A stretch of 64,000 bases of DNA from Anaerolinea sp. (GTDB lineage: Bacteria; Chloroflexota; Anaerolineae; Anaerolineales; Anaerolineaceae). Location of the stretch: positions 1 through 64,000 of the forward strand of contig DYEC01000024.1 of NCBI GenBank assembly GCA_020725865.1, given 5' to 3'. Positions within the stretch are counted from its first letter, which is position 1; each line of letters opens with the position of its first letter. Positions 38,966-51,321 of this stretch are shown here, in pieces. Under the pieces are notes generated by a model. That model was not told the origin of the DNA. It did not search any database and saw only the letters and a program-made list of their open reading frames with translations. The position numbers were made by a program, and so were the translations under genes.

Positions 38966-39673
38966 TTATTCTTTTTGCCGGTGGGTACCATCGCAGAGCG
39001 GTTTGTTCTTTGAGCGTCCGCAACTGCAGAGCGTGACGCGATTTCGGACTTCCATCGGTTTTCCGTCAGAGCGTTCAATCGGGATATAGCCTGTTACCCA
39101 TAATGGACCTTCAATTGGCCCGTCTGAAGTAATTTCAGTGGTGACGGCAATTTGCTGGGGCAGATCGGGTTCAATATCAGGTTCTCCTTCTTTCATCGCA
39201 TACGTATATGAACCGGAAGGACAACGTTCAATCATACCGATAATTTCTGCCCGCACTCGGGGTTCAGTTGTGTCCTTCATCATTTGTTTGATTTCAGTAA
39301 GACGGTTACCGCAGAAGCCAGACTCACAACATAGTGAGTAGTCGCGTTTGACGATAATACCGACACCATCTTCATAGATGACTTGTCGCTCAGCAGTTGG
39401 ACGGGTGTCGGCGGTCTCGGTGCCGTCAAAATCAATTTCTTTGTGAGTGCCGTCACAAAACGGTTTGTCTTTAGAATGCCCGCAACGGCACAGAGAGTAG
39501 TACTCGCTTTCGCCGGTGGGAATGGTTTGTTCTTTTTTCCAGGTCAACGGCTCGCCATACTCGGAAACGACCTGGGTTTTACGCACCAGAGGAATGTTGC
39601 CATATACCCGATACGACCCGTTTGGACGAACGACAATTTTTTTGTCTGTAGAGTGCTCTGGTTTACTGGTCAT
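38966..39673 (-). CDS. Double-CDGSH iron-sulfur protein
   Basis: A 235-residue soluble protein with two CDGSH motifs (C-x-C-x8-C-x3-H): Cys62, Cys64, Cys73, His77 and Cys216, Cys218, Cys227, His231. Each binds a redox-active 2Fe-2S cluster in known members. Between them lies a segment with Cys115, Cys116, Cys121 and Cys151 resembling a small divergent ferredoxin-like domain that may hold another cluster. A role in electron transfer or redox sensing is inferred. GGAGG precedes the ATG at 39673. It converges on the ATPase gene. Confidence 0.9.
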   Translation of the reverse strand: MTSKPEHSTDKKIVVRPNGSYRVYGNIPLVRKTQVVSEYGEPLTWKKEQTIPTGESEYYSLCRCGHSKDKPFCDGTHKEIDFDGTETADTRPTAERQVIYEDGVGIIVKRDYSLCCESGFCGNRLTEIKQMMKDTTEPRVRAEIIGMIERCPSGSYTYAMKEGEPDIEPDLPQQIAVTTEITSDGPIEGPLWVTGYIPIERSDGKPMEVRNRVTLCSCGRSKNKPLCDGTHRQKE

Positions 39674-39728
39674 ATTTACCTCCAATAACAATCAATGATT
39701 ATTTTGGGTATGGTATTTTTTAGCCCAA

Positions 39729-39894: not shown

Positions 39895-40692
39895 ATGAAT
39901 CAATCTCAATCGGTGAACGACCTATTCAGTCAGTATTTGCCGCCGCTGGCGGAAAACCTGGTGGTGCTGACTGCAAACCGGATTCGCAACATGATCACCA
40001 ATGGCTCATTGGCGCCGGGTTCGCGTCTGCCGAACGAACATGAACTTTCCGAGGCGATGGGAGTGAGTCGCGGCACAATTCGTGCCGCTCTCAATTTATT
40101 GCAACAGCAAGGCTTGCTCTGGAGACGGCAGGGGGTGGGCACATTTATCAGTGAAGTACCGCTTTTGGAAAACCGTCTTGATCTCAATTTCAGCTATACG
40201 GCGCTGATTCGCTCAATGGGACACCAACCGGGCTGCAAATTGCTGGACATTCGCGTCATCCCGGCAGATGAATTGAGTGCAAACCGTTTACAGGTAGAGG
40301 AAAGTACACCGTTAGTGTGTATCCGCCGCATCCGTACCGCTGATGAGCGCCCTGTGGTAGCTTCACTGGATAGCTTTCCGCAGAGCTTGTTGTATCAAGG
40401 GATGCGCAAGATGGAGCTGGAAGACCTGCGGCGGCTTTTAAGCGAAAAAATCTCCCTGTATCAGGTCTTTGAAGAGGATTTGCATCAGACGATTGATTAT
40501 GGGATTACCCGGTTGCGGCCAATTGCGGCAGATGCACAGCTCATCAAGCAATTCGCCCTGGATATTCCAAGGGGCTCCGTTATGCTTTATATGGAACAAT
40601 TAGATTTTGACCGAAATCGGCAACCAATCCTTTTTTCGCATGAATATCATCTGGCTGAACATACCACATTCACGATCTACCGCCGCCGCTGA
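39895..40692 (+). CDS. GntR-family regulator, HutC/UTRA subfamily
   Basis: A 265-residue protein with an N-terminal winged helix-turn-helix (LAPGSRLPNEHELSEAMGVSRGTIRAAL) and a C-terminal UTRA ligand-sensing domain. HutC-type GntR proteins usually repress adjacent uptake and catabolic genes and are released by a pathway metabolite, often a phosphorylated sugar. It lies directly upstream of, and on the same strand as, the polyol-type transport cluster. The effector is unknown. Confidence 0.9.
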   Translation: MNQSQSVNDLFSQYLPPLAENLVVLTANRIRNMITNGSLAPGSRLPNEHELSEAMGVSRGTIRAALNLLQQQGLLWRRQGVGTFISEVPLLENRLDLNFSYTALIRSMGHQPGCKLLDIRVIPADELSANRLQVEESTPLVCIRRIRTADERPVVASLDSFPQSLLYQGMRKMELEDLRRLLSEKISLYQVFEEDLHQTIDYGITRLRPIAADAQLIKQFALDIPRGSVMLYMEQLDFDRNRQPILFSHEYHLAEHTTFTIYRRR

Positions 40693-40763: not shown

Positions 40764-40871
40764 AAAGGAGGTGATCTAAACCGTTGAATTGAGATGATAG
40801 CTTTTCAAGCTGACAGGTCGTTCATTTGGATGCTATTTGATGGAGTAGGAGGAAAAGATCATGAAGCGTGA
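40764..40871 (+). promoter_or_regulatory. Full-length Shine-Dalgarno and small upstream frame before the binding-protein gene
   Basis: AAAGGAGGTGATC (40764-40776) is a full complement to the 16S rRNA 3' end but lies 84 nt before the nearest real gene. After it come a two-codon frame (TTG AAT TGA) and a 25-codon frame (40794-40871) that overlaps the next gene's start. It could be a translated leader peptide, a ribosome standby site or chance. Confidence 0.35.
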
Positions 40872-42402
40872 GGTGTCACTATTCATAAGTCTAGTTGTCC
40901 TGGTTTCGTTGGTGCTGGCGGCTTGTGCGCCTGCTGCCACTCCCACCCCGGAAGCTAAACCACAAGAGGGGCAGCAGGGCGGTGCCTGGTCGCTGGCTGA
41001 AGCTGCCAAACCCTGGAAAGGTGAAACGCTGCGGTTGATCGGTGAGGCGCTGCCGCCACTGGAAGCGCTGGAAGAGCTAAAACCACAGTTTGAAGAAATC
41101 ACCGGCGCCAAAGTCATCATTGAGGGGTTGGGACATGAAGAGGCGGTTGAGAAAGTTACCTTGGATTTTGCCGGTCAGACGGGCGTTTATGATGTTGTAC
41201 TTCAGCCCAATCGAGCATTGGGAAAGTTGGTGACCAATGGCTGGTTGCGCCCTATTGATGAATTCTATAATAACCCTGCCCTGCGAGATCCCAATTTCAG
41301 CTATGAAGGATCGCTGCTCAATCAGGAATGGTTCCGAGAGACCAACATGTATCAGGATAAAGTGTATGGTTTGCCCTTCCACTTTATCAGTATGTATCTG
41401 TGGTACCGCTATGACTGGTTTGATCATCCCGATGAGCAGGCGGCTTTCAAAGCCAAATACGGTTATGATTTACCCTCTCCGCCGATTACCTGGGAAGAAT
41501 ATATGGATGTGGCAGAGTTCTTCACCCGTAAGTCTGGGGAGAAACTGGCAGGTGAAACACTCACCTATGATGTCTATGGTCATACCTGGGGCGGTGCCCG
41601 CCATGTAACAGCTTGGTATGACTTCCTTAATGTCATTTATTCATACGGCGGTCGTGATATTAAGCTACCCAACAACCGCGGCGACTCATACGGTCCGGTC
41701 ACGGTCAATTCACCCGAGAATCTTGAAGCGCTCAAGCTGATCATTGATTCGCTGAAATATGCTCCGCCCGGAGTACTCAGCTCCACATGGGATGAAAAGC
41801 AGGCTGCTCAGCAATCCGGTCTGGTAGCGATGGCTATCCAATGGGATGATGCGGCATTTGCCGTTGAAGATCCGGAGCAATCCAAAGCTTCCGGCAAGAT
41901 TGCGTACAGCGGGGTACCGATCAAGAAAGAGAAGATGACCCAGATCGAAGGGTGGGATTATCTAATTCCCAAGAGCTCCAAGAAGCCTGAATTGGCGTGG
42001 CTGTTTGTTCAGTGGGCAATGGGTAAGGATATCCAGATTGCACAGATGAAACTGGGCGGTCAATCCGCACTGGTAACCACCTACGAAGATCCTGAGGTGG
42101 TTGCCATCCCCTACGTACCCACCTCTGTGTATCTAAAGACTGCTGGCAAGACCGTCCTGAAGGTTCGCAAAGTGGGTGACCCGACAGGTGGTGGTGTACC
42201 TGAGCGCTATCTCAATGCAACCAATCCACTAACGGGTGATACCTCTGTGAATATTGTCGCCAAGCCCACTTTCCCGGAGGAAGAACGTATCACCGAAGCC
42301 ATCATCCTTTGGGTGAACCGCGCCTTAACCGGAGAGGTCACACCAGAAAAAGCACTTGAGGAACTTGAAAAAGAGATGAAATCCATCTTGCCCAGCCAGT
42401 AA
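40861..42402 (+). CDS. ABC sugar/polyol substrate-binding lipoprotein
   Basis: A 513-residue type 1 solute-binding lipoprotein (lipobox VLAAC) with a short P/T/E linker. FEEITGAKVIIEGLGHEEAVEKV and YGLPFHFISMYLWYRYDWFD are typical of family 1 (MalE/UgpB-like) proteins. It is longer than most (about 420-450), like glycerol- or polyol-type binding proteins. AGGAGGAAAAG precedes the start. A large GC-rich stem-loop follows the stop. Substrate unknown; the neighbouring enzymes point to a polyol or small sugar. Confidence 0.88.
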   Translation: MKREVSLFISLVVLVSLVLAACAPAATPTPEAKPQEGQQGGAWSLAEAAKPWKGETLRLIGEALPPLEALEELKPQFEEITGAKVIIEGLGHEEAVEKVTLDFAGQTGVYDVVLQPNRALGKLVTNGWLRPIDEFYNNPALRDPNFSYEGSLLNQEWFRETNMYQDKVYGLPFHFISMYLWYRYDWFDHPDEQAAFKAKYGYDLPSPPITWEEYMDVAEFFTRKSGEKLAGETLTYDVYGHTWGGARHVTAWYDFLNVIYSYGGRDIKLPNNRGDSYGPVTVNSPENLEALKLIIDSLKYAPPGVLSSTWDEKQAAQQSGLVAMAIQWDDAAFAVEDPEQSKASGKIAYSGVPIKKEKMTQIEGWDYLIPKSSKKPELAWLFVQWAMGKDIQIAQMKLGGQSALVTTYEDPEVVAIPYVPTSVYLKTAGKTVLKVRKVGDPTGGGVPERYLNATNPLTGDTSVNIVAKPTFPEEERITEAIILWVNRALTGEVTPEKALEELEKEMKSILPSQ

Positions 42403-42513: not shown

Positions 42514-42723
42514 ATGAATATTGGCGACAAGATTACCTGGTCTTATCGAATTCTGTTTATCCTGATGCTGGTCTGGCTGCGTTTTATTGAACAGTACATC
42601 ACCATCTGGGGGGTATGGGTGGTTTGGGCGATCATTGCGTTTATCATCTTCTTTCAGCCGTTTAAACGGCGGAAGAAGAACAACCACAAGCCGGATATGC
42701 CGAATACCATTGATGTCAAATAG
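42514..42723 (+). CDS. Small two-helix membrane protein of the transport operon
   Basis: A 69-residue protein with two hydrophobic segments (about 10-27 and 30-49) and a basic, hydrophilic tail RRKKNNHKPDMPNTIDVK. AAAGGAG precedes the ATG. It lies between the binding protein and the ATPases, the position held by a small membrane gene (GlpU) in glycerol-type importers of rhizobia, though I cannot claim homology. A structural or accessory role in the transporter is inferred. Confidence 0.65.
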   Translation: MNIGDKITWSYRILFILMLVWLRFIEQYITIWGVWVVWAIIAFIIFFQPFKRRKKNNHKPDMPNTIDVK

Positions 42724-42735
42724 GAGAGGAACGCG

Positions 42736-43833
42736 ATGACCACACTGAACCTGAAAAATGTCTGGAAGATTTATGAGGGGAATGTACTTGCCGTTCAAGA
42801 CTTGAATATAGAGGTTAAAGACGGTGAGTTGTTTGCCCTGCTGGGTCCATCCGGCTGCGGTAAATCATCCACATTGCGCATGATCGCCGGATTGGAGAAA
42901 ATCACGCGCGGGGAAATCTGGTTTGATGATATTCTTGTCAATGACCTTGAGCCGCGCGAGCGCAATGTGGCGATGGTGTTTGAGACGTACGCACTTTATC
43001 CCTATCTGAGCGTTTATGAGAACATCGCTTTTCCCCTGCGCATACGCGGTATGAGTCGTGACGAAATAGATAAAAAAGTCCGCTGGGCGGCCGATTTTCT
43101 GGGAATCACCGATTTGTTGCCCATGCGTGTCCGGGGGCTAAGCGGCGGGCAGATGCAAAGCGTTGGTATTGGACGTGCCATCGTGCGCGAGCCTTCGGTT
43201 TTGTTAATGGATGAACCGATTTCGCATCTAGAAGCCCGACAACGCGCCCGCATGCGCGAGGAACTGGTGGATCTGCACCACCGGCTTGAGACGACCACCA
43301 TTTACGTGACCCACGATCAGGTGGAGGCAATGACGATGGCGCATCGCATTGCCGTGATGAATCTGGGTAAACTTCAGCAGGTTGGAACGCCGACAGAAGT
43401 TTATGAGCGTCCGCGCACCCAGTTCGTTGGTGGTTTTATTGGTGAGCCTCCGATGAACTTCGCAGATTGTGAGCTGGTGCATGAGAATGGTGAGGTGTTA
43501 GCTGTCTCACCATCCTTTAAAGTCCGGCTATCCTCTCAAGCGGCAAAAAAGCTGGAAAGTTATCAAGGCTCCCCAATGGTGCAATTGGGGATTCGTCCGG
43601 AAAGTATCTCGGTCAGCAAAACGCCGATGCCCGAAAGCATACAGGCTCAGGTTTATGTATTAGAGCCCCAAGGCGAGCGCACATTGCTCAGCGTGAAACT
43701 GGCGAATGGTGAGCTGTTCTTGATTGAAGTTGCTCCAGATTTTACTGCTCGAGTAGATGAGACAATCTATTTACAATTTCGCGAGCCGATTCACCTCTTT
43801 GAATCCCAAGAAGGGCTGAATCTGCTTTATTAG
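42736..43833 (+). CDS. MalK/UgpC-like ABC ATPase, first of an unequal pair
   Basis: A 365-residue ATPase with the C-terminal OB-type regulatory domain of the MalK group. The Walker A is GPSGCGKS (37-44), the signature LSGGQ (135-139), Walker B ends Asp159-Glu160 and the H-loop His193 is present (VTHDQVEA). Departures: the Q-loop Gln is Glu83 (VFETYALYP), the D-loop reads SHLEAR for the usual SNLDAK, and the signature continues MQSVGIGRA. It is followed after 32 nt by a second ATPase, suggesting a heterodimer. Confidence 0.93.
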   Translation: MTTLNLKNVWKIYEGNVLAVQDLNIEVKDGELFALLGPSGCGKSSTLRMIAGLEKITRGEIWFDDILVNDLEPRERNVAMVFETYALYPYLSVYENIAFPLRIRGMSRDEIDKKVRWAADFLGITDLLPMRVRGLSGGQMQSVGIGRAIVREPSVLLMDEPISHLEARQRARMREELVDLHHRLETTTIYVTHDQVEAMTMAHRIAVMNLGKLQQVGTPTEVYERPRTQFVGGFIGEPPMNFADCELVHENGEVLAVSPSFKVRLSSQAAKKLESYQGSPMVQLGIRPESISVSKTPMPESIQAQVYVLEPQGERTLLSVKLANGELFLIEVAPDFTARVDETIYLQFREPIHLFESQEGLNLLY

Positions 43834-43865
43834 AACCTTAATCAAGGTTTTTATCAGAGGTGACC

Positions 43866-44969
43866 ATGGCAAAAATCAGCGTTCAACATGTTTCTAAGAC
43901 ATATAAAGGCGGTGAGGTTCAGGCGCTGAAGGATGTTAGTTTTGAGTGTGAGGATGGCAAGTTTTTCTGTTTGCTCGGACCTGCCGGCGCAGGAAAGACT
44001 ACCACGATTAAGCTCATTGCCGGCATTGAAGCGATTGATAAGGGGCAGATTTTTATGGATGAACAGGATATCACGGATCTGTTGCCCAAAGACCGCGATG
44101 TTGCAGTGGCATTTGAAACATACGCGCTTTATCCACAGCGGACTGTTCGTGAAAATCTGGCATTTCCATTACGGGCGCCTATGCGTAAAGGCGGGATGAG
44201 CGAGCAACAAATTCAGCAACGGGTGGTAGAGATTGCCAAATTGCTGGGTATAGAGGAACTGCTGGAGCGGTTGCCTCGCCAGCTTTCCGGCGGTCAACGT
44301 CAACGCGTTGCGCTGGGGCGTGCACTGGTGCGCAAGCCCAAAGCGTATTTGCTGGATGAGCCAATTGCTCACCTGGATGCCAAGCTGCGCCATCGTATGC
44401 GCGGCGAGCTGAGACGCATTCAGCTTGAGCTGGGTATTACCACCATCTATACCACACCTGACCAATTGGAAGCCCTTTCGCTGGCGGATTATATGGCAGT
44501 CCTGAATAATGGGGTGATTGAACAGGTCGGTACGCCGGCAGAAATTTATAATCATCCGATTAATCTCTTCGTTGCCCGGTTTGTTGGCGACCCGCCGATG
44601 AATACCCTGCAAGCTAAATTGGACGGAAGTGACCTGGTTCTGTTTGGGCTGGCAAAATTGCCTGTTTCTGCAGAGCTGAAAACCCGATTGGCAAATGCAT
44701 TGGCTGGGGATGGAGTGGTTGTTGGTGTTCGCCCGAAAGACTTGGATATTGTTACGCCCGATAGCAGTGAAGCCCTGTTCAAAGGTGAGGTCAAAAATGT
44801 TCAGGTATTGGGTGAGACCTCTATTATTACTGTGGTCATCAATGCGCATGAGCTGCGTGCCAAACTCAATACGCAGATGGCGCCAGGGCGCGGCGAGCGT
44901 GTGGGCTTGAAATTCACACTGGATGACTGTCATTTCTTTGATGCACACACCGAACAGCGGTTATTTTAG
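43866..44969 (+). CDS. MalK/UgpC-like ABC ATPase, second subunit with H-loop proline
   Basis: A 367-residue ATPase. The Walker A GPAGAGKT (38-45), signature LSGGQRQRVALGRA (from 140) and LLDEPIAHLDAK are intact. The H-loop histidine is replaced by Pro198 (TTPDQLEA), and the Q-loop residue is Glu84. Loss of the H-loop His normally cripples ATP hydrolysis, so one composite site of a heterodimer with the upstream ATPase would be impaired. ATG 43866 is preceded by AGAGG. Confidence 0.92.
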   Translation: MAKISVQHVSKTYKGGEVQALKDVSFECEDGKFFCLLGPAGAGKTTTIKLIAGIEAIDKGQIFMDEQDITDLLPKDRDVAVAFETYALYPQRTVRENLAFPLRAPMRKGGMSEQQIQQRVVEIAKLLGIEELLERLPRQLSGGQRQRVALGRALVRKPKAYLLDEPIAHLDAKLRHRMRGELRRIQLELGITTIYTTPDQLEALSLADYMAVLNNGVIEQVGTPAEIYNHPINLFVARFVGDPPMNTLQAKLDGSDLVLFGLAKLPVSAELKTRLANALAGDGVVVGVRPKDLDIVTPDSSEALFKGEVKNVQVLGETSIITVVINAHELRAKLNTQMAPGRGERVGLKFTLDDCHFFDAHTEQRLF

Positions 44970-45014: not shown

Positions 45015-45884
45015 ATGAGAAGCAGACGTTATATCTGGTGGTGGGTCCTTCCATCGGCGATCCTGTTTTTGGGAATTATCCTGATCCCTTTCATCACCGC
45101 ACTGACCTATAGCTTCCGCTCGTTGAGTTTTACTACCTCAACTGCCACCGGTCAGTATATTGGCGTTGAGAACTATCGGCGGCTGGTGTTTGATCAAGAT
45201 TTTTATAACAGCTTTAAGGTGACTTTCCTGTACATGGTGCCGGCAATTATTTTGCAGGGTTTGCTGGGGCTGGGGATGGCGCTGCTAATTGCTGGGGCGG
45301 TTCGGCGAGCGCGCATCCTGATTCCGATCATGCTCTTACCCACCTTGCTGACGCCGGTGGTGATTGGTTTGATTGGGGTCTTAACGCTTAACCCGGATTT
45401 TGGCGTCATCGGTCAGTTCTTAAACCGACTGGGGCTTGTGCAGGGTGCAGTGTTAGGGAATAGCGATACTGCTTTGCTGGCAATTATTGCTGTGGATACC
45501 TATCAATGGACGCCTTTTGTGGCGGTCATTTTGACTGCCGGGTTGTTGGCGCTTCCCAAAGAGCCGTATGAAGCTGCTCAAGTGGATGGGGCCAACCGCA
45601 TTCAAACGTTTTTCCGGGTGACCATGCCGCTACTCTGGCAGTATTTTGTAGTCGCCATTCTAATCCGGGTGATTGATGCGTTCCGCATTTTCGATATCAT
45701 CTGGGTCATGACACGTGGCGGCCCGGGCACGGCAACCGAGGCGGTGGCGGTCTATGCTTATCGTCACACCTTCCGCTACTGGGATCTGGGGTACGGCTCG
45801 GCATTGATCATGGTGATCTTTGTCTTTATCTCGATCCTGGTTGAGTATTTGTATAAAGCATTGCAAAAGTGGCAAACCGCCTGA
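45015..45884 (+). CDS. ABC sugar/polyol permease, MalF/UgpA type
   Basis: A 289-residue inner-membrane permease with about six helices. The EAA-loop, EAAQVDGANRIQTFFRVTMP, contacts the ATPase, and the final part IWVMTRGGPGTATEAVAVYAYRHTF is typical of the UgpA/MalF group. AAGGAG precedes the start. It pairs with the next gene to form the channel. Confidence 0.93.
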   Translation: MRSRRYIWWWVLPSAILFLGIILIPFITALTYSFRSLSFTTSTATGQYIGVENYRRLVFDQDFYNSFKVTFLYMVPAIILQGLLGLGMALLIAGAVRRARILIPIMLLPTLLTPVVIGLIGVLTLNPDFGVIGQFLNRLGLVQGAVLGNSDTALLAIIAVDTYQWTPFVAVILTAGLLALPKEPYEAAQVDGANRIQTFFRVTMPLLWQYFVVAILIRVIDAFRIFDIIWVMTRGGPGTATEAVAVYAYRHTFRYWDLGYGSALIMVIFVFISILVEYLYKALQKWQTA

Positions 45885-45904
45885 ACCGAGAAAGGAGCAA
45901 TAAA

Positions 45905-46777
45905 ATGGCAAACAATCTGAACATTACTTCTGCCGCCCGCAAGCAAGCCTCTGCTCATTCCCGGCGCTTGTTAACCTGGATTTCTTATTTGTTGACCGGG
46001 TTGCTGGTGGTGATTTTCCTTTTTCCCTGGTTATGGGTGTTTAGCCTGGGGTTTAAGACCCGGGCAGAAATCATGAGCCCCAATATCGTGTGGATTTGGA
46101 CACCAACCTTGAATAATTTCATTGAAGTTCTCTTTGTCAAGGGGTATTGGCGGTTGATTATCAATTCGCTGATTGTAGCGGTTTCAGCAGTAACATTGTG
46201 TATTGTGATTGGTGTTCCAACCGCCTACGCTTTTTCGCGCTTTCCAATACCGGGAAAAGAAAGCTGGTTTTACATGATTCTAACCTTCCGCATGGCACCC
46301 GCGGTTGTGTTGGCTTTACCGTTGTATGTCATCTTTGCAAGGATCAAACTGCTGGGTACCTATGGAGCACCGATTCTAGCGCATTGTACGTTCACTTTGC
46401 CTTTTGTCATCTGGCTGATGAGAAGTTTCTTTGATGACATTCCAAAGGAAATAGATGCTGCGGCGATGACAGATGGTTATTCCCGCGCGGAGGCGTTTTT
46501 CTATGCTGTTTTGCCGCTGGTCAAATCGGGCATTGTGGCGGTGGCGCTTTTCTCGATTATCTTCTCATGGAATGAGTTTCTTTATGGTCTGATCCTGACC
46601 AGTGATGCCACTCGCCCAGTAGCTTCGCAAATCCCGTCATTGATCCGTCCACATGGCACGCTTTGGGGTGAGGTATGCGCTCTGGCAACGACTGCATCGT
46701 TGCCGGTGGCAATCCTGATCTTTGCCCTGCAGCGCCAGCTTGTGCGCGGGCTGTCCTTCGGGGCTGTCAAAGGTTAA
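45905..46777 (+). CDS. ABC sugar/polyol permease, MalG/UgpE type
   Basis: A 290-residue permease with about six helices. The EAA-loop is EIDAAAMTDGYSRAEAFFYAVLPLVKSG, and NSLIVAVSAVTLCIVIGVPTAYAFSRF is the common second-helix region of MalG/UgpE/GlpQ-like subunits. GAAAGGAGC precedes the ATG at 45905; an upstream reading overlapping the previous gene is rejected. The downstream enzyme gene starts after only 16 nt. Confidence 0.93.
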   Translation: MANNLNITSAARKQASAHSRRLLTWISYLLTGLLVVIFLFPWLWVFSLGFKTRAEIMSPNIVWIWTPTLNNFIEVLFVKGYWRLIINSLIVAVSAVTLCIVIGVPTAYAFSRFPIPGKESWFYMILTFRMAPAVVLALPLYVIFARIKLLGTYGAPILAHCTFTLPFVIWLMRSFFDDIPKEIDAAAMTDGYSRAEAFFYAVLPLVKSGIVAVALFSIIFSWNEFLYGLILTSDATRPVASQIPSLIRPHGTLWGEVCALATTASLPVAILIFALQRQLVRGLSFGAVKG

Positions 46778-46793
46778 GACAAGGAGCTTTGAA

Positions 46794-47498
46794 ATGAAAC
46801 CAGAACTGATTGTGATGCTCACTCATCAGGACACCACGGTCAAAAATGCATATCAATTGTTTGAACAGACTAAGGATATTCCCATTAAACATTGGGGCTT
46901 TAAGGATGTTGGACTGCCTCCAGAAGAAATGAAGCGCCTGGTTCGTTTTATGAAGGACGCTGGTAAGGTAACTTTTCTAGAAGTAGTCAGCCTCTCGGAA
47001 GAGGAAGGGCTAAGGGGCGCCAAGCTGGCGGTGGATGCTGGCTTTGATATTCTCATGGGTACGGTGTACTTTGAGTCCATTCATGCTTTTTTGAAAGATA
47101 AACCCATTCATTACTATCCATTTCCGGGTCACGTTTATGGTCACCCGTCTATTTTGGATGGAACGATTGAGGAAATCGTTGCTCATGCTCGCTACCTAGA
47201 AGCACAGGGAGTACAGGGAATGGACTTGCTGGCTTATCGTTATGTGGGTGATGCGCGTCAGTTGCTGAAGGAAGTGGTCAAGGCGACGCAGGTGCCAATT
47301 GTTTCAGCAGGCAGTGTGGCTTCTTATCAGCGGATTGCTGAAATCTGGGAAGCCGGTGCCTGGGGGTTTACGATTGGTGGCGCATTTTTTGAGGCGAAGT
47401 TTGTGCCTGGCGGTACATTCACCGAGAATGTGCAGGCAGTGTATGAGTGGCTTTCCAAAACGGAGGAGTCTGAGCTCAATCAGTATCTTTCAGGCTGA
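46794..47498 (+). CDS. Unassigned TIM-barrel protein, phosphate-binding type
   Basis: A 234-residue soluble protein with eight alternating strands and helices. Near the end VPIVSAGSVASYQRIAEI and GFTIGGAFF place small-residue loops where HisA/HisF, aldolase and related barrels bind a phosphate. Strand ends carry KHWGFKD, FLEVVSLSEEE and DILMGTVYFES, giving lysine, glutamate and aspartate as candidate catalytic residues. I cannot assign a family; an aldolase, epimerase or isomerase acting on the kinase product is plausible. AAGGAG precedes the ATG at 46794. Confidence 0.65.
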   Translation: MKPELIVMLTHQDTTVKNAYQLFEQTKDIPIKHWGFKDVGLPPEEMKRLVRFMKDAGKVTFLEVVSLSEEEGLRGAKLAVDAGFDILMGTVYFESIHAFLKDKPIHYYPFPGHVYGHPSILDGTIEEIVAHARYLEAQGVQGMDLLAYRYVGDARQLLKEVVKATQVPIVSAGSVASYQRIAEIWEAGAWGFTIGGAFFEAKFVPGGTFTENVQAVYEWLSKTEESELNQYLSG

Positions 47499-47524: not shown

Positions 47525-49054
47525 ATGGGTTATGTAATTGGTTGTGACATTGGTTCACAGGCCGTTAAGGCAATCTTGCTATCTGACAGGGGTGAGCTTC
47601 TGGGGGAGGCTGGTAGTTCCTACCCAATTGATTATCCCTTTCCAGCATGGGCGGAGCAGGATGCTCGTTACTGGGAAACAGCGGTTGTACAGGCTGTAAA
47701 TGCGCTTTTAAAGCAGTGTAGTGTGGATAAAGATGATGTCGTTGCTATTGGGCTGGATGCACAGGTGGATGGGATTGTCGCCGTAGATGCTTCCGGCCAG
47801 CCTCTACATCCGGCGATCATTTGGATGGACCGCCGGGCTGTGCAGGAGACGGAAGCAATTGCCAGGATGTTCGACTCGCGCCGCATTTTCGACATCACCG
47901 GCTTAAACCTGGATGCTTATCACGTTGCCCCAAAGATTCGCTGGCTGGCTGAAAATAAGCCTCAAGTCTTTGAGCAGGCGCGGTATTTTCTAATGCCCGG
48001 CAGTTATGTTGCCTTCTGGTTGACCGGCGAGCTGGGTGTAGATTACTCCAATGCTTCTTCGATGCTCTTGATGGACATCCGCAGGCGTGAATGGTCTTCG
48101 GAACTATGTGAGATGTTTCAAGTACCGCAAGACCGTTTGCCACCAATTTATCCCGCCAATCATGTACTGGGAACATTGCGCCCTGCGCTGGCAGAGAGAA
48201 TGGGATTATTGCCTGCTACCTGGGTTGTGCTGGGGTGTGGAGATGAACATGCTGCTTCGCTGGGGGCTGGGGTGATTCGCTCTGGTATGGTTTGCGATAT
48301 TGCCGGCACGGCTGAACCGGTTTGTGCTGCTGCTACTGAGCCTTTTTTTGATGAGAGTGGCCTTGTGGAAACACATTGTCACTCGCATCCGGACTTCTGG
48401 TTGCTGGAAAATCCAGGTTTTGTTTCCGGCGGTAATTACCGTTGGTTTCGCGATCACTTTGCCATAGAAGAAGTGAAACGAGCGGCTGAATTGGGGCTGG
48501 ATGCATACGATTTGCTCAATGAAATGGCAGCCTCGGTGCCGGCTGGCAGCGAAGGGTTGCTCCTATTGCCCTGTCTGATGGGAGCAGTAACGCCAACCTG
48601 GAATGCCCATGCACGCGGCACTTTTTTGGGGTTCACGTTGACCCACCGCCGCGCTCATTTTGTACGCGCTGTTTTGGAAGCTTCGGCATTTGCGTTGCGG
48701 GATATTACCGACCGGATGCAGGAGGTTGGACTGATCTTGAATGAAATTCGTGCGGTGGGCGGCGGGGCGCGCAGCGCGCTTTGGCGTCAGATCAAGGCAG
48801 ATGTCACTGGTTTGCCGGTCAGTCTGTTGAACACGGTGGAAACAACTGCATTAGGAGCGGCACTGCTGGCTTTGCACGGGGCAGGGCTGGCAGCCACTTT
48901 AGATGAAGCTGTGGAGATGACGGTTAAAGTGGTTGAAACTCGTGAACCTGATCCACTCACTCACACTCAATACAATGAGTATTACCAGATTTACCGGGAT
49001 GCATATTTTGCTTTGCTGCCGGTGTTTGAAAAGGCAGCCAGGATTTCACAATGA
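47525..49054 (+). CDS. FGGY-family carbohydrate kinase, xylulokinase-like
   Basis: A 509-residue two-domain kinase. The N-terminal domain starts GCDIGSQAVKAILL and has the WAEQDARYWE and IIWMDRRA substrate region. The C-terminal domain has AVGGGARSALWRQIKADVTG and TTALGAALLA for ATP. The FGGY family phosphorylates ketoses and polyols such as xylulose, glycerol, ribulose and erythritol; this one is nearest the xylulokinase pattern by eye. It overlaps the phosphatase gene by ATGA (49051-49054). Confidence 0.9.
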   Translation: MGYVIGCDIGSQAVKAILLSDRGELLGEAGSSYPIDYPFPAWAEQDARYWETAVVQAVNALLKQCSVDKDDVVAIGLDAQVDGIVAVDASGQPLHPAIIWMDRRAVQETEAIARMFDSRRIFDITGLNLDAYHVAPKIRWLAENKPQVFEQARYFLMPGSYVAFWLTGELGVDYSNASSMLLMDIRRREWSSELCEMFQVPQDRLPPIYPANHVLGTLRPALAERMGLLPATWVVLGCGDEHAASLGAGVIRSGMVCDIAGTAEPVCAAATEPFFDESGLVETHCHSHPDFWLLENPGFVSGGNYRWFRDHFAIEEVKRAAELGLDAYDLLNEMAASVPAGSEGLLLLPCLMGAVTPTWNAHARGTFLGFTLTHRRAHFVRAVLEASAFALRDITDRMQEVGLILNEIRAVGGGARSALWRQIKADVTGLPVSLLNTVETTALGAALLALHGAGLAATLDEAVEMTVKVVETREPDPLTHTQYNEYYQIYRDAYFALLPVFEKAARISQ

Positions 49055-49860
49055 CCGATGCGCTGGCTTCTGTGACTTGCTTTCTGCTGGATATGGACGG
49101 CACGTTTTATCTTGGCAACCGCCTGATTGACGGTGCTCTAAAGTTTATTGAGGTGCTGAGACAACAGAAAAAGCAGTTTCTATTTCTTACCAACAATTCC
49201 TCGAAACACAGCCGCATGTATGCCGAAAAGATCACAGCACTTGGGTTGCCGATCAGCGCTGAGCAGGTTTTCACATCTGGTGAAGCCACTGCGTTGTACC
49301 TCAAGCGCGAATATCCCGATGCTCGTTTGTTTGTGGTTGGTACGCCAGCCCTAGAGGATGAATTTCGTCAACATGGGTTAACCCTTGTGCAGCACAATGC
49401 TGACGTGGTGGTGCTGGGGTTCGACACAACGCTGACCTATCAGAAATTATGGGCATTGTGTGATTACGTTCGTGCCGGCGTGCCCTATATTGCCACTCAT
49501 CCGGATTACAATTGTCCGACCGAGACCGGTTTTATGCCGGATATTGGCGCAATGATCGCTTTCGTCAAAGCTTCAACCAACCGCGAGCCGGATGTTGTCA
49601 TTGGGAAACCGAACCGGTATATTATCGAAGAGTTGGCTGGCAAGCTTCATGTGCCTCTGAACCGGTTAGCTATGATCGGTGACCGTCTTTACACGGATAT
49701 TGCGTTGGGAAAAACGGCCGGCATTATTACTGTGCTGGTTCTAAGCGGTGAAACAAAGCTGGAAGATTTGGAAACATCGCCCTACCAGCCCACCTATGTT
49801 TTCAACCATCTTGGTGATGTGGCTGATTATCTGTTGAAGCTGGAAGAAGAGCGTTTTTGA
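49051..49860 (+). CDS. HAD-IIA phosphatase, NagD/AraL-like
   Basis: A 269-residue phosphatase. The catalytic motif is LLDMDGTFYLGN (nucleophile Asp in DxDGT), then FLTNNSSKHS, the C2 cap, and the C-terminal KPNRYIIEEL and MIGDRLYTDIALGK magnesium motif. NagD/AraL/phosphoglycolate-phosphatase-like members dephosphorylate small sugar and triose phosphates with broad specificity. Translational coupling to the kinase and closeness to the AraM-type gene match the AraL-AraM pair of the Bacillus arabinose operon. Confidence 0.92.
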   Translation: MTDALASVTCFLLDMDGTFYLGNRLIDGALKFIEVLRQQKKQFLFLTNNSSKHSRMYAEKITALGLPISAEQVFTSGEATALYLKREYPDARLFVVGTPALEDEFRQHGLTLVQHNADVVVLGFDTTLTYQKLWALCDYVRAGVPYIATHPDYNCPTETGFMPDIGAMIAFVKASTNREPDVVIGKPNRYIIEELAGKLHVPLNRLAMIGDRLYTDIALGKTAGIITVLVLSGETKLEDLETSPYQPTYVFNHLGDVADYLLKLEEERF

Positions 49861-49881
49861 AACAATGGTTTGGAGGTATTC

Positions 49882-51321
49882 ATGAGTCAATTGCCCTACG
49901 ACCCTGCCGAGAACGAGGTGTTCTGGGAGAGAATCCGTCAGTTGCCCGGTTTTCCTAAAGAGGACGCCATCCCGCTGCGTCAGATGATTTTTGAGCCGGG
50001 AGCAATTTTTCGCTTGCCTGAAATCCTTCGCTCTGCTGAGGTGCGTTTTTCTATACCTGTTCTAGCCGTCATGGACGCGACCCCGATGCGGCGTGGCGAT
50101 GACAGCCTGAAGCCGCTGGTTATCCGCGTCTTGCGTCAGGCAGGCTGGGAAGTGGAACCCTTTGTATTGGAAGCAGATGCAACCGGTCAGGTACATACGG
50201 ATATGCCGCACATTGAGGCGGTCAAAGCGCGCTTGTCTCCTGAGAAAGCGGTTGTTTCCATCGGGTCTGGGGTGGTGACCGACATCACCAAACATGCCTG
50301 CTACCTTTTTGAGATGGAAACAAAGCATCCTATCCGGTTTATTGTTTACCAGACCGCGAACAGCGTCAGTGCCTACACCTCTAATTTGGCACCGGTGTTT
50401 ATTGAGGGAGTGAAACGAACCCTGCCCTCGCGCTACCCGGATGCACTGGTTTGCGATCTGGAAACACTGCGCGATGCACCACTGGATATGACGATTGCCG
50501 GTGTTGGCGATTTGCTGGCTGCCTTTGTTGCACTGGCAGACTGGTACTTAGCGGATCAACTGGGGTTTGTGGACAATTACAGCCCATTGGCAGAATTGCT
50601 GATGGGACCACTAGATGAATTATTGCTTGAACAGGCAGAAGCCATCCGTAATGGTTCTTTAGAGGCGATGGCACTTTTGGCAAAATTGATTTCCCTGGGC
50701 GGACTGGTAATGTCACTCTACCATGATACCACGCCGCTTTCGGGGTACGAACATGTGATGTCCCATGTACTGGATTTGCAAAGTGAGCTGACGGGACGTC
50801 CATTTGCCCTGCATGGTACGCAGGTGGCGCTAACCTCCATCCTTGGCGCGGCGGCATATCAGCAATTCCTGGAACATTTTGAACCCGATGCGGTCGCGGT
50901 GAATGATTGCTTCCCGCCCCAGGATGCAATGCAACAAATGGTTTTCAGTACATTCCATGCAATTGACCCTTCGGATAAGGCAGGGCAGGAATGCTGGTCA
51001 GATTATCGCCTGAAGTTGCAGAAGTGGCATGATCGGCGTGGTAAATTTGAGGTATTCCTGAAGAACTGGTCGGCCATCAAGCCGGAACTGACATCCAGAA
51101 CCCGATCTCCCGATTATCTAAAGCGTATTTTTGCCGCTGTGGGTGGACCATGTAACTTTGCACAACTTGCCCCGCCAGCAGATGAAGAAACAGTCAGGTT
51201 TGCTTTTTTGAATGCGCCTTTGATCCGCAAGCGGATCACCCTTGGTGATTTGTTAATCTTCTTACGGTGGGATCGCGAGAAGCTCTGGCAGCGGGTCTGG
51301 CATTCGACGCAATCCTGTTAA
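49882..51321 (+). CDS. AraM/EgsA-like glycerol-1-phosphate dehydrogenase family protein
   Basis: A 479-residue iron/zinc-type dehydrogenase of the dehydroquinate-synthase-like fold. The NAD(P) site is GSGVVTD (128-134). Metal ligands are Asp210 (AGVGDLLAA), His291 (SGYEHVMSH) and His311 (ALHGTQV). AraM reversibly reduces dihydroxyacetone phosphate to sn-glycerol-1-phosphate. The protein is some 80 residues longer than Bacillus AraM because of a C-terminal extension. GGAGG lies 6 nt before the ATG at 49882. It closes the cluster. Confidence 0.87.
   Translation: MSQLPYDPAENEVFWERIRQLPGFPKEDAIPLRQMIFEPGAIFRLPEILRSAEVRFSIPVLAVMDATPMRRGDDSLKPLVIRVLRQAGWEVEPFVLEADATGQVHTDMPHIEAVKARLSPEKAVVSIGSGVVTDITKHACYLFEMETKHPIRFIVYQTANSVSAYTSNLAPVFIEGVKRTLPSRYPDALVCDLETLRDAPLDMTIAGVGDLLAAFVALADWYLADQLGFVDNYSPLAELLMGPLDELLLEQAEAIRNGSLEAMALLAKLISLGGLVMSLYHDTTPLSGYEHVMSHVLDLQSELTGRPFALHGTQVALTSILGAAAYQQFLEHFEPDAVAVNDCFPPQDAMQQMVFSTFHAIDPSDKAGQECWSDYRLKLQKWHDRRGKFEVFLKNWSAIKPELTSRTRSPDYLKRIFAAVGGPCNFAQLAPPADEETVRFAFLNAPLIRKRITLGDLLIFLRWDREKLWQRVWHSTQSC

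Follow-up and report, generated by a model that had tools for sequence, protein, structure and literature searches.

In ABC transporters a composite ATP site is built from the Walker motifs, the Q-loop and the H-loop of one subunit and from the signature motif of the other (PMC7756269). For the H-loop His, the residual ATPase activity was given as under 2% in MalK H192R and as under 0.1% in HlyB H662A (PMC6222333), and, according to a title in the reference list of the same article, transport is severely impaired when one of the MalK subunits is mutated. The exporters TM287/288, TAP, TmrAB and ABCC1 combine one consensus with one degenerate composite site (PMC7756269). According to that source, transport by ABCC1 is little affected when the H-loop His of its degenerate site is mutated and nearly abolished when that of the other site is, and indirect evidence is cited for ATP acting as a lasting glue in degenerate exporter sites. 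Among importers, two different ATPases are used by the Dpp/Opp peptide systems, for which ATP-gamma-S was modelled in DppF (PMC12136057), and glpS and glpT have been named as ABC ATPases (PMC11223650).

The window analysed here is a stretch of 64,000 nucleotides from Anaerolinea sp. (assembly GCA_020725865.1, contig DYEC01000024.1). An earlier note on this DNA had described two adjacent, unequal MalK-type ATPases, here called A and B, and both open reading frames were recovered at 42736-43833 and 43860-44969, with the residues as described.

Gene content of the operon

The operon, in which two ATPases accompany a single binding protein and a single pair of permeases, is reproduced gene by gene in an Anaerolineales MAG, in a locus joined from L114 and L205 (L114x), where A is 79% and B 71% identical. 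The percentages in the following lines are identities to the syntenic genes of L114x.

39895-40692, plus strand: GntR/UTRA regulator (68%)
40861-42402, plus strand: extracellular solute-binding protein, SBP_bac_1 (87%)
42514-42723, plus strand: small ORF of 69 aa in the gap between the binding protein and A, hydrophobic, no Pfam match above cut-off (66%)
42736-43833, plus strand: ATPase A, H-loop-intact partner, MalK-type, 365 aa
43860-44969, plus strand: ATPase B, H-loop-Pro partner, MalK-type, starting at GTG 43860 or, more likely, at ATG 43866
45015-45884, plus strand: permease 1, top NCBIfam model UgpA, below cut-off (88%)
45869-46777, plus strand: permease 2, top NCBIfam models GlcU, MalG and UgpE, below cut-off (86%)
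46767-47498, plus strand: TIM-barrel-like protein with weak matches only, to NMO and a HisA-type isomerase (78%)
47525-49054, plus strand: FGGY carbohydrate kinase, xylulokinase-like, just below the XylB cut-off (69%)
49051-49860, plus strand: HAD-IIA family phosphatase (69%)
49870-51321, plus strand: Fe-ADH_2 protein, glycerol-1-phosphate dehydrogenase-like (63%)

The best solved relative of the binding protein is a trehalose/maltose binding protein and that of the FGGY kinase is a xylulose kinase. The operon is of the sugar-uptake type, and from these relatives its substrate is probably a sugar or polyol. In 400 genomes of the phylum the binding protein found matches at E up to 1e-30 in nine, its own genome included, and the matches outside its own genome were 31-39% identical. 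The 69-aa ORF may encode an accessory membrane subunit; a comparison with DUF2160 gave no match at a limit of E = 1, at which HMMER filters may drop weak matches. At 38966-39691 on the minus strand the window also encodes a protein with C-x-C...CDGTH motifs, which we take to resemble CDGSH iron-sulphur domains.

Residues of the two ATPases

ABC_tran and the C-terminal OB_MalK and TOBE_2 domains were all found above their cut-offs in both ATPases. The best NCBIfam model for either is PRK11650 (UgpC, NF008653), with 401.2 bits for A and 366.5 bits for B, below the cut-off of 432. A has the motifs GPSGCGKS (Walker A), VFETYALYP (Q-loop), LSGGQMQSVGIG (signature), LMDEP (Walker B), SHLEAR (D-loop) and YVTHDQ (H-loop); the corresponding motifs of B are GPAGAGKT, AFETYALYP, LSGGQRQRVALG, LLDEP, AHLDAK and YTTPDQ. 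E. coli MalK and UgpC, when aligned, have FQ in the Q-loop, SNLD in the D-loop and THDQ in the H-loop. Of the residues typical for CUT1/MalK-type ATPases, the Q-loop Gln is thus absent from both A and B, each having Glu, and the H-loop His is present in A and replaced by Pro in B. The positions discussed below are as follows.

42982-42984, plus strand: A, Q-loop Glu83 (GAG) at the Gln position
43138-43152, plus strand: A, LSGGQ signature, then MQSVGIG; predicted to face the Walker motifs of B in a composite site
43222-43233, plus strand: A, D-loop SHLE, with His where E. coli MalK has Asn
43312-43314, plus strand: A, H-loop His193 (CAC)
44115-44117, plus strand: B, Q-loop Glu86 (84 from the ATG), GAA, at the Gln position
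44283-44297, plus strand: B, intact LSGGQ signature; predicted to face the Walker motifs of A in a composite site
44358-44360, plus strand: B, intact catalytic Glu of Walker B, Glu167 (Glu165 counted from the ATG)
44367-44378, plus strand: B, D-loop AHLD
44457-44459, plus strand: B, H-loop Pro200 counted from GTG 43860, Pro198 counted from ATG 43866, which is probably the true start; CCT

The earlier note was therefore correct in reading His193 in A, Pro198 together with an intact signature in B, and Glu in the FETYALYP Q-loop of both. It had also named a read error at the CCT codon near 44457 as a possible source of the Pro. The L114x orthologue of B keeps FE, AHLD and TPDQ, and a second A/B pair on another contig of the window genome (L070) has the same features, with A 57% and B 53% identical to the pair in the window. 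Since FE and TPDQ recur in a syntenic orthologue and in L070, a sequencing error is unlikely, and for the CCT codon a read error is ruled out by TPDQ recurring in other loci, namely L114x, L070, L099, L135 and L200; the Pro is genuine. Moreover, B is under purifying selection, with pN of 0.19 vs pS of 0.88 over 366 codons and dS saturated. For A the values are 0.14 and 0.85, dS again being saturated, and B is less conserved than A. Decay of B into a pseudogene is ruled out by its open frame, its intact Walker motifs and the low pN relative to pS.

A family with Q-loop Glu and D-loop His

Relatives were collected in two ways. A D-loop scan with the degenerate DNA pattern DEPI[SA]HL[DE]A, which is blind to the Q-loop and the H-loop, was run over one genome per species and gave at least 119 loci. 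Seventeen of the 119 scan loci yielded no alignment row, 28 of the 215 ATPase hits were too short or too weak to be kept, and two identical rows were counted once, which took the 187 rows to 185 aligned ATPases. For the second sample, proteins similar to A or B were sought irrespective of their D-loop; it covers the loci returned from the window genome, from 29 genomes belonging to the same phylum and from 30 genomes of the class of one alphaproteobacterial genome.

Among the matches listed, D-loop His occurs in 157 of the 185 aligned ATPases, and their Q-loop position is occupied by Glu (149), Asp (5) or Gln (2) and is gapped in one. The 28 listed rows that lack the D-loop His all have Gln in the Q-loop; GlpS and GlpT make up 14 of them. 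The second sample comprises 69 distinct ATPases: ten combine Glu with His, 59 combine Gln with Asn, Ala or Ser, and no other combination occurs. Four of the ten Glu rows are the two pairs of the window genome itself and one (L230) is the gene of the scan-derived locus L118, leaving five rows, from three genomes, to which no such selection applies. Q-loop Glu and D-loop His therefore travel together in a strict association; as the trait may have arisen once, the association is no proof of functional coupling. In the available portions of the open-licence literature no mention of a Q-loop Glu together with a D-loop His was found.

Some members have unusual arrangements or hosts. The Gln-plus-His exceptions are A-like partners in the alphaproteobacterial loci L138 and L176, and the other ATPase there has Asp in the Q-loop. 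In the alphaproteobacterial loci L138 (1278-2462 and 5878-7050), L125, L168, L176 and L189 one ATPase has Q-loop Asp (MVYDKHS), D-loop SHLD and H-loop SHDQ; in L138 and L176 the second ATPase (FQ, SHLD) lies some kilobases off and is not adjacent. A Glu/His pair at L178:1102-3416 stands on a contig binned as Candidatus Aenigmatarchaeota, for which a binning error is possible, and a Desulfobacterales chromosome carries a B-type ATPase (THDY) at L113:2414-3757 with no adjacent A detected. A pattern search of viral contigs gave no match. When B was compared with a plasmid collection, at least 5000 records matched, all under 60% identity and with 44% as the best among the matches listed, a result that says nothing on the Glu/His family.

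The earlier note had treated the Q-loop Glu and the SHLEAR D-loop as impairments. Among the matches listed there are 12 isolated single ATPases of the family, flanked on both sides by 1.3 kb or more, each being the sole ATPase hit of its locus. Eleven have Glu, LSGGQ, AHLD and THDQ, and the twelfth has THDY. A further 32 listed rows lie too close to the end of their locus to be called single. If the 11 singles work as homodimers, as we assume, Q-loop Glu and D-loop His are compatible with hydrolysis. Among the matches listed, Glu and D-loop His are carried by both partners of all 50 pairs described below as well as by the 11 singles with intact motifs. The Q-loop Glu is thus probably not a lesion, judging from its distribution, and neither, probably, is the SHLEAR D-loop: the interpretation as impairments is not supported, and the D-loop change is family-wide and not specific for A.

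Asymmetry across adjacent pairs

Adjacent ATPases form 58 pairs among the matches listed. Fifty pairs with a D-loop His in each partner were counted and the remaining eight left out; Q-loop Glu was not a condition for counting. The D-loop scan supplied 46 of the 50 and the genome similarity searches four, two of these being the window genome's own. A and B were distinguished by the Walker A residue that precedes the last Gly; this residue is Cys, Gly or Ser in A and Ala or Ile in B, and one cut-off row that lacks it was assigned to B.

In these 50 listed pairs, Q-loop Glu, the Walker A Lys and the Walker B Asp-Glu are present in every A and every B, which bears out for the family the Gln-to-Glu exchange noted in the window. 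The H-loop and the signature behave differently in the two partners. The H-loop His is kept in A in 50/50 and in B in 27/50 of the listed pairs, B otherwise having Pro (21) or Thr (2), and the H-loop of B reads THDY or THDF in 19 of the 50. Conversely, SGGQ is intact in A in 10 and in B in 44 of the 50 pairs among the matches listed, departing in 40 and 6, respectively. Given the geometry of the composite site, a lost His in B and an eroded signature in A affect one and the same site. Taking as severe a lost His or a broken SGG, 36 of the 50 listed pairs have a severe lesion on the site made of the Walker motifs of B and the signature of A. On the site made of the Walker motifs of A and the signature of B there are five among those listed, each also affected at the other site, and 14 of the 50 have no severe lesion at either site. 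The 14 pairs without a severe lesion and the five with both sites affected mean that the asymmetry is graded.

The one-sidedness persists when related pairs are thinned. When the listed pairs are grouped by A identity into 34, 23 and 20 clusters, the 20-cluster set having A under 50% identity, B lacks the His in 14, 11 and 9 clusters and A lacks it in none, among the matches listed. A departure from SGGQ that is confined to A occurs in 22, 16 and 13 of the same clusters and one confined to B in none; sign tests are uncorrected. Furthermore, A is more conserved than B in 1102 of 1225 pair-versus-pair comparisons among the matches listed, which are not independent of each other. Departures are therefore concentrated on one composite site at the level of the family, as in degenerate-site heterodimers, and in the window Pro is found in B only. 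Since the LSGGQ core of A is intact there, the Pro alone marks the weak site of the window pair.

History of the H-loop Pro

A quick tree was built from 146 of the 185 rows with the motif columns excluded; it leaves 48 of 143 inner branches open and has long branches for GlpS and several B rows. In this tree the B of the window falls into a clade of seven rows (support 95), all seven with Pro. Parsimony among its 42 B rows requires at least five changes between His and non-His, a count that cannot separate loss of His from regain. Among the matches listed, the hosts with Pro are, by their record titles, Anaerolineae and other Chloroflexi, Spirochaetes, Lachnospiraceae, Alphaproteobacteria and one actinomycete (Georgenia), and Thr at this position of B occurs in Atribacteria. 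With Pro in 7/7 of the window clade and His in 27/50 of the B partners among the matches listed, the exchange of His for Pro is a lineage-specific change that recurs and does not define the family as a whole. The question raised earlier, whether it is fixed in the orthologous group, can thus be answered with yes for the clade of the window and with no for the more distant B partners.

Proposed mechanism and alternatives

Given the observed residues, the way they are conserved and the one-sidedness seen throughout the family, we infer that A and B probably assemble as an obligate heterodimer driving one CUT1 (MalFGK2-like) importer for a sugar or polyol, with one hydrolysing and one degenerate site. 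A heterodimer of one competent and one impaired site had been proposed before, and the wider family suggests it, with its lesions on one composite site. The Walker A, Walker B, Q-loop and H-loop His of A together with the LSGGQ of B would form the site that hydrolyses ATP and sets the cycle. The Walker motifs and the Pro H-loop of B together with the signature of A would bind ATP and hydrolyse it slowly or not at all, perhaps serving as a hinge by which the motor stays partly closed. A slow Pro site is supported by the losses of activity in MalK H192R and HlyB H662A, and the ABCC1 results, in which the H-loop His counts for much in the consensus site and for little in the degenerate one, also speak for this reading. 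As to the order of events, Q-loop Glu and D-loop His may be the older family trait, compatible with catalysis, and the loss of His may have followed later and in B only. If one mutated MalK subunit severely impairs transport, as the title cited above has it, a motor like A/B should fail unless it has been rewired, and the natural pair must differ from MalK somehow.

One place for such a difference may be the D-loop. In FbpC the H-loop His contacts, in trans, the D-loop carbonyls of Ser167 and Leu169, which flank the position of the D-loop His, and the Q-loop Gln binds the metal (PMC2896483); because of this contact across the interface the D-loop His is a candidate for rewiring. In a speculative scenario with a small but appreciable chance, Glu and the D-loop His would have rewired the inter-site contact and made the H-loop His expendable in one partner, after which Pro would have replaced His repeatedly and given rise to one-stroke sugar importers. 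It is unlikely that the rewired pair took over part of the work of the H-loop His across the dimer interface to such a degree that the B site still hydrolyses. This would agree with the catalytic Glu retained in B and with the similarity sample, in which the D-loop His accompanies 10/10 Glu rows (the five selection-free ones included) and 0/59 Gln rows; however, Glu and D-loop His may have a single origin in one event, and the signature of A, eroding on the same site, fits a fading rather than a rewired site. Moreover, two rows among the matches listed (L138 and L176) have the D-loop His together with Gln, and GlpS has lost its His with the D-loop ANLD.

Two further explanations are less likely still. 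Both sites might be active, with the Pro tolerated and the H-loop His non-essential in this family. The alternation of His and non-His among the B rows, with Walker motifs intact throughout, and the results for Pdr5, described as controversial (PMC6222333), would be in line with this, but we consider it very improbable, as A is found without His in none of the 50 pairs among the matches listed, where a non-essential His could have been lost from A just as readily. The least credible proposal is that A and B each dimerise with themselves and serve different permeases, or that B is a regulator only. Each subunit does have the full set of NBD, OB and TOBE domains; yet the operon contains a single permease pair, the complementary departures fit a mixed dimer, and a B-B dimer would have no H-loop His at either site. 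The obligate A-B heterodimer with one hydrolysing site thus remains the reading that we prefer.

Comparison with known systems

As a summary, the family presents a well-supported and recurrent asymmetry among importers for which symmetry is the usual description; two of its residues are cleanly associated, and the mechanism is a proposal. The H-loop His is stably missing, and more than once, from one subunit of MalK-type pairs in several phyla, whereas in MalK itself a change of this His all but stops ATP hydrolysis and one altered subunit is said to suffice for a severe impairment of transport (PMC6222333). Symmetric motors with apparently a single ATPase and asymmetric ones are matched within the family, which offers a handle on one versus two ATP hydrolyses per import cycle, and Q-loop Glu and D-loop His are a concrete residue pair open to testing. 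In annotation, such pairs are easily mistaken for two copies of UgpC/MalK. They do resemble MalK and UgpC in having the NBD, OB_MalK and TOBE_2 and in PRK11650 being the best model for A and B; in contrast to these homodimeric CUT1 ATPases with Q-loop Gln and D-loop Asn, the window pair has Glu, His, two unequal genes and a Pro in B.

The closest parallel is found in Alphaproteobacteria. DUF2160 was present in 8/8 alphaproteobacterial genomes searched, and seven loci (L220-L226) were compared. By their DUF2160 neighbours these ATPase pairs are identified as GlpS/GlpT of the glycerol ABC importer. In 7/7 of the loci GlpS has the H-loop TTEP without His and GlpT a signature of the LTAD/LGAD type, so that both lesions fall on one composite site, and like the window pair they are adjacent, unequal MalK-type ATPases. 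The motifs themselves differ: GlpS and GlpT have Q-loop Gln and the D-loops ANLD and TVID, whereas the window pair has Glu, SHLE and AHLD; TTEP and the altered signature in GlpT stand against TPDQ and LSGGQ in both partners of the window pair; and DUF2160 is a neighbour there and had no match in the window operon. Membership in GlpS/GlpT is ruled out by this motif pattern, the Q- and D-loops and the missing DUF2160. The analogy drawn in the earlier note thus holds for the logic and fails for the identity: the pair is predicted to work like GlpS/GlpT and is not a member.

Further afield, the Dpp/Opp peptide importers also have two different ATPases and belong to a separate importer family, and the available part of PMC12136057 describes no H-loop lesion. 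With the heterodimeric exporters the pair shares the combination of one consensus and one degenerate site; in ABCC1 the degenerate site has Asp for the Walker B Glu (PMC7756269), whereas B of the window keeps this Glu and has lost the H-loop His. The window pair is best placed among the degenerate-site ABC heterodimers, within the MalK-type importers.
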